Of a stretch of 64,000 nucleotides of DNA, positions 38,752-40,987 are shown in pieces. The notes under the pieces are model-generated. The model was given only the letters and a program-made list of their open reading frames with translations. It was not told where the DNA came from and made no database searches. Position 1 is the first letter of the stretch, and each line of letters starts with the position of its first letter. This stretch comes from Candidatus Thalassarchaeum sp. (GTDB taxonomy: Archaea > Thermoplasmatota > Poseidoniia > Poseidoniales > Thalassarchaeaceae): the NCBI GenBank assembly GCA_022449345.1, contig JAKURL010000007.1, positions 18,181-82,180 of the forward strand, written 5' to 3'. The translations under genes and the position numbers were made by a program.

Positions 38752-39449
38752 TCAATCACCTCGACCTTAATCGAAGGACCCATTGAGGTCTTGATGTAGC
38801 AAGATCGGATATTTCCAGTTCCACGCTCTAGCTTGCCTGTAACTCGAGTCCAGATTGCCATTGCGTTGTTGGTTAGGTCGTCGAGACTTTGCTCTCGAGA
38901 ACCTACTGGGCTGTGGAAAGTCATCTTGTCTCGTGAGCGTACAATCGCTGTGTCCTTCAGACCGGCTGCAACCATTGCAGGGTCAAGGGTAGGTGGCACT
39001 GGACGTGGCATCTTACCACGAGGACCGAGAACAACACCGAGGAATCGACCAACGGTTCCCATGTGAGGAATCTCTGCGAGGAAGAAATCGACGCTATTTG
39101 CCAACTTACGAGCCTGTTGGCGGTTGCCACCTAGGTCCTCGATTGTTGCTGGGTCGATGATATTGATTCCAGCTGCTCTAGCTTTGGTTGCCATTTCGCC
39201 ACCGGCGAACATGGCTATCTTGACCGGTTTTCCGCGACCAGCAGGAAGACGAATCTCCTCTTGGATACGGTTTGCAGGATTCTTCAGGTCAATGTCCTTC
39301 AAGTTAAATGAAAACTCGACGGTCTCGATGAACTTACGCTCGGGAGCGCTGTTCAGAGCTTCTTCAATCGCTGTTTGGATATTTTCTCTCATATTTCTCA
39401 CCTCTGCGGTCAGCGAGGTTCCCCTCTCCCGCAATTCGTGTTTTATCAC
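38748..39449 (-). CDS. rpl1: Ribosomal protein L1
   Basis: RKFIETVEFSFNLKDIDLKNPANRIQEEIRLP, GRFLGVVLGPRGKMPRPVP. Confidence 0.95.
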   Translation of the reverse strand: MIKHELRERGTSLTAEVRNMRENIQTAIEEALNSAPERKFIETVEFSFNLKDIDLKNPANRIQEEIRLPAGRGKPVKIAMFAGGEMATKARAAGINIIDPATIEDLGGNRQQARKLANSVDFFLAEIPHMGTVGRFLGVVLGPRGKMPRPVPPTLDPAMVAAGLKDTAIVRSRDKMTFHSPVGSREQSLDDLTNNAMAIWTRVTGKLERGTGNIRSCYIKTSMGPSIKVEVIE

Positions 39450-39724
39450 TCAAAATGCTCGTCGAATCTCCCTTCTTTCATTTCTTGTAATGCGGTCTTT
39501 GGCTCCATGCCTTCGACCTTAACGCGCATTGCTACGCAGGTCCCCATGACCTCGCGTGAGCGCGCGTATAGTGTTGTACCGGTCAAGCGGTCCTTTTGTT
39601 TCTCAGCAACCTGCTTGACTTGGTCCATGGATAGGTTCTCAGTGGAAGCATCCCAACTTCCATTGCACTTCTTCTGACCTAGGGTCTGCAGAATCACGTG
39701 AGGTGTCTCATTGCGTGCTGACAT
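39446..39724 (-). CDS. rpl11: Ribosomal protein L11, C-terminal domain only (92 aa)
   Basis: LSMDQVKQVAEKQKDRLTGTTLYARSREVMGTCVAMRVKVEGMEPKTALQEMKEGRFDEHFE matches the archaeal L11 C-terminal domain; SD GGAGGTT upstream of ATG; in-frame TAG five codons upstream. Confidence 0.88.
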   Translation of the reverse strand: MSARNETPHVILQTLGQKKCNGSWDASTENLSMDQVKQVAEKQKDRLTGTTLYARSREVMGTCVAMRVKVEGMEPKTALQEMKEGRFDEHFE

Positions 39725-39810: not shown

Positions 39811-40710
39811 TCACTCGACGCGCTGAGTTACTCGAACTTGGTCAGCGCGCACGGTCAGAGCGACTGGTACAGCCGCTTCGAAGAGTTCGACCGTGACCTC
39901 TTCCTTTGATTCTGTAACACGGATAACGCGAGCTGCCTGACCCTTGAATGCGCCGCCGCTAATTTCGATGATACAACCTTCCTCAATGCCGGCAGTTGCC
40001 GCCTTAGGCTCAAGATAGGAAAGTGTGTTTTCGAGTGGTGATACTCCTGGAAGTACCTTTCGGCAGTTCTTCAGACGGGTTGTGGTCATGCCGACCATTC
40101 CAATCAATTTCTCGACGTGGTGAAGTGCTGAAGCCTCGACGAAGATATAGCCACGAACGTGGCCCGGAACCAATACTCCGAAGATCTCCTCTTGAATGGC
40201 TTTTAGCGAACCGGTACCGGAAAGTCGAGCGCGAATTTCCTTGGCTACATTCTCTTCCTGACCGATGCTGGTCTTGAGGATGTAAAGGAAAGCAGCGACG
40301 TCACCATACATCGCATCGATTTGTGGAATTGCAAATCGCTCAGCACCGATTCCTTCATTTGATTTTGATTCGTAATTTCCAATGTATGCTGGATCGACCC
40401 AGCTGTGATTCTTGTAGATGGTTCGAGGGGTGGCTTCATCGCTCTCGGAAATGAACAATAGTGGAGTAACATCGTTTAGACGGTTTCCAAAAGCAAGACC
40501 TCGTGCAGGACCTGAGCGAACGTACTGAAGTGACTCAGCAGGGATTCCTGTGCACTCGGTGACTCTAGTGGTAACCGCATCGATATCCTCCGGATCTCCT
40601 ATACCATATATTCCATCCCAAGCACCGGGAAAATCAGCGACCTCGTCGGCTCGCTGCATGATTAGGACCTTCTCGCCGTGGCGAATGTAGACTACGTATG
40701 CATCGGACAT
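39811..40710 (-). CDS. spt5: Transcription elongation factor Spt5 (NGN + KOW) with N-terminal NUDIX-like domain
   Basis: C-terminal FLYILKTSIGQEENVAKEI and EISGGAFKGQAARVIRVTESKEEVTVELFEAAVPVALTVRADQVRV; N-terminal YIRHGEKVLIMQRADEVADFPGAWDGIYGIGDPEDIDAVTTRVTECTGI resembles NUDIX. SD GAGGTGA upstream of ATG. Confidence 0.88.
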   Translation of the reverse strand: MSDAYVVYIRHGEKVLIMQRADEVADFPGAWDGIYGIGDPEDIDAVTTRVTECTGIPAESLQYVRSGPARGLAFGNRLNDVTPLLFISESDEATPRTIYKNHSWVDPAYIGNYESKSNEGIGAERFAIPQIDAMYGDVAAFLYILKTSIGQEENVAKEIRARLSGTGSLKAIQEEIFGVLVPGHVRGYIFVEASALHHVEKLIGMVGMTTTRLKNCRKVLPGVSPLENTLSYLEPKAATAGIEEGCIIEISGGAFKGQAARVIRVTESKEEVTVELFEAAVPVALTVRADQVRVTQRVE

Positions 40711-40720
40711 CTATCTCACC

Positions 40721-40987
40721 TCAGGAGTTGGTTAGCCAATCGAAGAACACAGGTAGTGCGTTATCCATCAACCAAAGCATCAGGAATCCGATTGCACCCA
40801 GAATAAACATCCCAATTCCACAGACGATTACGGTCTGGCGGAATTCTTGCTTGGAAGGTTTTCTGGCCATCTTTAGGATTCGAGCCATAGAGCCGGTTTG
40901 TACTCGGCGTAATCTCTCTTCTATGTCATCCTGTAATTTCTGTGCAGTTTGCTCGATAGGACCAACATCAGAGTTCTCGATAGCCAT
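40721..40987 (-). CDS. secE: Protein translocase subunit SecE
   Basis: Short single-TM protein with KPSKQEFRQTVIVCGIGMFILGAIGFLM between FtsZ and Spt5. Confidence 0.85.
   Translation of the reverse strand: MAIENSDVGPIEQTAQKLQDDIEERLRRVQTGSMARILKMARKPSKQEFRQTVIVCGIGMFILGAIGFLMLWLMDNALPVFFDWLTNS

Follow-up and report, generated by a model that had tools for sequence, protein, structure and literature searches.

Spt5 of the order Poseidoniales (MGII) carries a NUDIX-like domain in front of its NGN and KOW domains; the NUDIX-NGN-KOW arrangement is a new architecture for this universal, already known factor. The representative studied here lies in a 64,000-nucleotide stretch of Candidatus Thalassarchaeum sp. 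DNA (hereafter the window), where an uninterrupted open reading frame with an ATG start encodes a protein of 299 aa (spt5, 39811..40710, minus strand). By predicted fold and by homology the added domain belongs to the NUDIX clan, and the residues at its former active site make it very likely a catalytically dead pseudoenzyme rather than a NUDIX hydrolase. We favor, with a probability of roughly 0.6, a role as a non-catalytic docking or ligand-binding module that is held on RNA polymerase via Spt5-NGN. Spt5 is a universal RNA-polymerase elongation factor and MGII are abundant ocean archaea; a whole order of surface-ocean archaea has thus taken a domain of a metabolic-type enzyme into Spt5 and fixed it under strong selection. 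The pseudo-NUDIX domain is therefore a direct candidate for a lineage-specific elongation regulator, and would be a clean case of an enzyme turned binding module with free relatives surviving in sister lineages. No description of a NUDIX-Spt5 fusion was found in the openly licensed literature.

The window protein is a member of archaeal Spt5 with ~135 extra N-terminal residues, as detected by Pfam and TIGR00405 matches and by homologues across the order. A sequence-only reading of the same DNA had described one uninterrupted 299-aa frame in a SecE-Spt5-L11 cluster, preceded by the Shine-Dalgarno sequence GAGGTGA and ending in ~150 residues of archaeal NGN and KOW; its coordinates are right, and the strand, which it did not give, is minus. 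The Spt5 portion proper (residues 139-299; 39814..40296, minus strand) matches the archaeal Spt5 equivalog TIGR00405 over residues 143-297 (5e-31; 107.6 bits versus a cut-off of 69.95), and its NGN matches PF03439 over residues 142-206 (1.2e-11; 44.8 bits, cut-off 22.4), while KOW by Pfam alone stays below its cut-off (17.4 versus 22.3). The top Foldseek matches of this portion are Spt5 of T. kodakarensis, P. furiosus, and M. jannaschii, and the same genome encodes Spt4 (PF06093, 3.4e-11, above cut-off). Upstream lies secE (40721..40987, minus strand; Pfam SecE, 2.8e-6), the end of which is overlapped by the Shine-Dalgarno sequence (40716..40722, minus strand) five bases before the spt5 ATG. 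Downstream lies a gene for a 92-aa uL11 consisting of the C-terminal RNA-binding domain only (39446..39724, minus strand; PF00298, 2.2e-6). The order secE-spt5-uL11 is kept in 85 of 89 related loci, and a strong Shine-Dalgarno sequence precedes the fusion start in 70 of 93 distinct relatives. NGN plus KOW, a genomic Spt4, and the secE-spt5-uL11 neighborhood are shared with archaeal Spt5 as represented by TIGR00405, T. kodakarensis 9bct, and P. furiosus 3p8b; however, archaeal Spt5 in publications is composed of NGN and KOW only, whereas MGII Spt5 possesses the further N-terminal residues (PMC11616081; PMC3382729).

The NUDIX-like character that the sequence-only reading had seen in the N-terminus was localized to its first ~110 residues. 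AlphaFold models of the whole protein and of residues 1-138 gave an identical core, with pLDDT of 83-95 in most core blocks and a predicted beta-beta-beta-alpha-beta-beta-beta-beta order over residues 1-111 (40378..40710, minus strand). The absence of a NUDIX fold, named in that reading as grounds for dropping the idea, was thus not what the prediction returned. The predicted domain is followed by a variable linker (residues 112-138, ending in MYGDV; 40297..40377, minus strand), which has pLDDT mostly below 50 and differs in length among relatives. A Foldseek search of the PDB with the N-terminal domain yielded 308 matches at E ≤ 0.001 with TM up to 0.66; the best 50 of these 308 are nearly all NUDIX hydrolases or other members of the NUDIX clan, for example IPP isomerase and the MUTYH C-terminal domain, and the NUDIX matches include NudI, RppH, RenU, Ap4A hydrolase, and M. 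mazei MutT. A Pfam search with the domain of the window protein itself gave no match, the cut-off of NUDIX PF00293 not being reached, and in NCBIfam it had a sub-threshold hit (0.099) to a NUDIX protein, the type-1 IPP isomerase. PF00293 is matched by 10 of 17 diverse relatives (best E 3.6e-6), one of those listed singly passing the curated cut-off (23.5 versus 21.1 bits). A profile of the domain searched against PDB sequences returned NUDIX proteins as all five best matches (0.011 to 0.32). Run against other Thermoplasmatota, the same profile (A1) retrieved free-standing NUDIX proteins with Glu-bearing boxes (E 3.5e-14 to 4.6e-10); the reverse profile (A5), built from seven free NUDIX proteins, retrieved the Spt5 domain in MGII genomes down to 9.4e-16, often as the best match of the genome. 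The closest sequence relatives of the domain are free Thermoplasmatota NUDIX proteins (L199, L200, L203, L205) and aconitase-X (AcnX)-swivel fusions (L201, L202, L204). Its assignment to the NUDIX clan accordingly draws on the Pfam matches of relatives, the PDB profile matches, the predicted structure with its Foldseek neighbors, and the reciprocal profiles.

The degenerate Nudix box (residues 33-56; 40543..40614, minus strand) points to loss of catalysis. An intact box, GX5EX7REUXEEXGU, occurs in none of the 93 distinct fused sequences, in keeping with the earlier remark that it is largely lost. All seven free relatives have the catalytic Glu, which gives way to Arg in 92 of 93 fused sequences (R49; codon 40564-40566, minus strand); the second box Glu is replaced by C, S, V, T, or A, and in the alignment the DW-E motif that precedes the last core strand of the free family is absent from the Spt5 domain. 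The free Thermoplasmatota family thus retains the catalytic glutamates, whereas the Spt5 domain does not; because of these combined losses the domain is very likely catalytically dead, as the sequence-only reading had proposed. Degenerate boxes and non-catalytic NUDIX domains have precedents, all of which differ from the MGII case. NUDT21/CFIm25 (CPSF5), a factor of eukaryotic mRNA 3' processing, likewise combines a NUDIX fold with a degenerate box and works on RNA polymerase II transcripts; its box reads GX5EX7RLX2EIXGR (PMC5389931), so that its changes differ from those in MGII, and it is a separate protein that is not fused to Spt5. Proteins of the NrtR and DBC1 type are regulators built of several domains, one of them a NUDIX domain without catalysis (PMC5389931), but they act as a DNA-binding repressor or a deacetylase regulator, whereas the MGII domain sits on a general elongation factor.

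Substitution patterns were examined for evidence of selection. Median dN/dS (Nei-Gojobori, 79 pairs) is lower in NGN-KOW (0.01) than in the NUDIX part (~0.06); 28 disjoint pairs gave 0.005 and 0.07, respectively. Core residues common to the free family and the Spt5 domain are L16, R20, W31, G33, G36, T54, G55, P83, L85, W104, and P107; in the latter, R10, D32, R49, R65, R70-G71, Y99, and D106 have newly become invariant or nearly so. With low dN/dS, a kept ancestral core, and a new invariant set, the domain is not decaying and looks like a re-purposed one. The new invariant residues would fit a specific ligand or partner, and our guess is that D32 pairs with R49 where the metal site used to be. 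With a mean net charge of –9 the domain is acidic, and general RNA binding is therefore unlikely. Better candidates are a partner protein or a small anionic ligand that the new arginines would hold.

Full-length homologues span the whole order, and the joining of the window Spt5 to the NUDIX-like domain is therefore not a chance product. Within Thalassarchaeaceae, 132 of 148 genomes have a match, among them each of the 14 high-quality genomes and members of all 11 genera, and nearly all matches unbroken by contig ends cover residues 1-299. The order's other family, Poseidoniaceae by position, shares this fused architecture, and across Poseidoniales every high-quality genome (35 of 35) and every genus (22 of 22) yielded an Spt5. 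All genera of the order that are well sampled have the fusion; its recurrence in independent genomes was a check that the sequence-only reading had asked for. Among the full-length-profile matches listed for 390 Thermoplasmatota genomes, none outside the order is fused; those listed cover NGN-KOW only, beginning at profile position 98 at the least. Plain Spt5 with a short acidic tail is what the third family of the class (the inferred MGIII) possesses, and a seed-pattern scan beyond Thermoplasmatota returned, among the loci listed, only the MGII group. Because the fusion is present in both families of the order and absent from the listed outside matches and from inferred MGIII, it dates to the stem of Poseidoniales, and it has a single origin. 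In a tree of the domain, the Spt5 copies form one clade (support 100/100) on a long stem of 2.3 changes per column, grouped with a free Thermoplasmatota NUDIX family (96/91); as the profile of the Spt5 domain served to gather that family and the tree has a distant outgroup, this grouping does not fix the exact sister.

Other explanations of the arrangement were rejected. Assembly error or frameshift is ruled out by the identical uninterrupted frame in both families of the order. A separate NUDIX gene in MGII was likewise not found, A1 matching only the fusion in the four MGII genomes checked (G000, G014, G148, G149), and with this the other doubt raised by the sequence-only reading, a separately encoded domain in related genomes and hence an artifact of assembly here, fell away. 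Free relatives of the domain are present in other Thermoplasmatota. An origin from the host genome's own free NUDIX genes, of which seven were found, was discarded as none is matched by A1 even at E 10; the five of their proteins placed in the tree all fall outside the group of Spt5 domains and free family. A few loci deviate. In genomes G008 and G027 the NUDIX and NGN-KOW halves are fragmented but share a contig, and these cases look like local errors; in the former (G008:C19:30726-31927, L135), the NUDIX and NGN-KOW parts lie in different frames ~385 bases apart, either by a local error or in a broken gene. In one MGII bin an additional Spt5 is of the plain form, and the uL11 after it is full-length and of the inferred-MGIII type (L150, G003:C36); this contig is likely contamination. 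Another bin encodes a distant second Spt5-like protein of 161 aa with 31% identity (L152, G092:C57:177-608), which is either a paralogue or contamination.

We propose the following route to the docking or ligand-binding module. After MGII split from the inferred MGIII lineage, a NUDIX hydrolase of a Thermoplasmatota family had its coding sequence fused in frame to the start of spt5. The metal and catalytic site was dismantled (Glu to Arg49, and the second Glu to its various replacements), the fold core being retained and the new invariant set acquired. The sequences demonstrate these steps or support them strongly. Archaeal Spt5 binds polymerase and Spt4 through NGN, while KOW recruits factors that include FttA, a termination nuclease at the RNA exit (PMC11616081; PMC3382729). 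Given this clamping of NGN on RNA polymerase with Spt4, each Spt5-bound elongating polymerase would carry a pseudo-NUDIX domain, held on the variable linker at the start of NGN. There the domain would recruit a protein partner or bind a specific nucleotide or RNA feature, supplementing the KOW recruitment platform and tuning elongation, termination, or transcription-translation coupling; the sequence-only reading had suggested that such a dead domain could be a nucleotide or RNA sensor or a protein-binding module. Non-catalytic Nudix domains are known typically from multidomain proteins, in which they bind small molecules or proteins (PMC5389931).

Several readings compete with this one. The domain could still be an enzyme with a rewired active site, comparable to GDP-mannose mannosyl hydrolases and IPP isomerases, and act on nascent RNA 5' ends or on nucleotides near RNA polymerase. 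E52 is indeed kept in 87 of 93 fused sequences, NUDIX enzymes with substituted boxes are known (PMC5389931), and several Foldseek matches are RNA 5'-pyrophosphohydrolases (RppH); however, the near-universal replacement of the catalytic Glu by Arg, together with the loss of the second Glu and of DW-E, renders residual catalysis quite improbable. An unlikely alternative of another kind is that the domain merely stabilizes Spt5-NGN or the Spt4/5 heterodimer, or serves the structure passively in some way and binds no ligand itself. This would agree with the higher dN/dS of the NUDIX part, which tolerates more change than NGN-KOW, and with its position on a variable linker, although the same linker speaks against a rigid cap, and a cap has no obvious need of a new invariant Arg/Asp/Tyr set that includes R49. 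It is highly improbable that the fusion is not expressed as such and that translation from the internal Met134 produces an ordinary NGN-KOW Spt5. Of the 93 distinct sequences, 82 retain Met134, but in none of the 93 does a Shine-Dalgarno sequence precede this position, and Leu takes its place in 11, five of these with non-start codons; moreover, the Shine-Dalgarno sequence is located before residue 1, and strong selection acts on the amino acids encoded upstream of Met134.

A further reading takes in the neighboring uL11 gene. The uL11 N-terminal domain is a near-universal part of the ribosomal GTPase center. Its Pfam family PF03946 was found in all 12 genomes searched from other Thermoplasmatota and in all 14 controls, but in none of 60 MGII genomes, nor in the host genome. 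Where found, MGII uL11 has the short form throughout, usually 91-100 aa (longer lengths stem from upstream start codons), compared with 154-162 aa in other Thermoplasmatota and inferred MGIII. The loss thus affects the gene next to spt5 and falls on the same branch as the fusion, and the cluster merits experiments in its own right. The pseudo-NUDIX domain might belong to a transcription-translation link that was rewired in co-evolution with the uL11 loss. Both changes map to one clade and to adjacent genes of one cluster, and KOW of bacterial NusG is known to contact the ribosome (PMC3382729). Nevertheless, one shared branch is a single event that proves nothing and may be coincidence, and pseudo-NUDIX and the uL11 N-terminal domain have no sequence similarity. 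The known NusG-ribosome contact, moreover, is at S10, distant from the uL11 N-terminal domain at the GTPase center, and we give such co-evolution little credence. In a bolder form of the module reading, which we consider rather unlikely, the domain would act as a polymerase-tethered sensor: the former active site with its invariant Arg would bind a nucleotide alarmone or an RNA 5' end and modulate elongation or termination via Spt5, within a reshaped transcription-translation interface that includes the shortened uL11.

N-terminal additions to Spt5 also occur elsewhere in Thermoplasmatota. Many other families possess a beta-rich extension of ~120 aa before NGN (L162, L164, L166, L167, L169, L175, L179, L180, L181, L183, L187), which is Ig-like in appearance, matches no Pfam family above cut-off, and is mutually homologous by leave-one-out searches (E 1e-15 to 1e-32). 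Homology of these extensions to the MGII domain was ruled out, as they match one another and not NUDIX; more than one N-terminal addition to Spt5 has therefore taken place within Thermoplasmatota. Finally, in the three swivel fusions from other Thermoplasmatota, a NUDIX domain of the same free family lies behind an aconitase-X swivel domain (PF01989, DUF126), identified by Pfam for L201 and by similarity for L202 and L204, which suggests that the free family is linked to the pathway of the aconitase-X enzyme.
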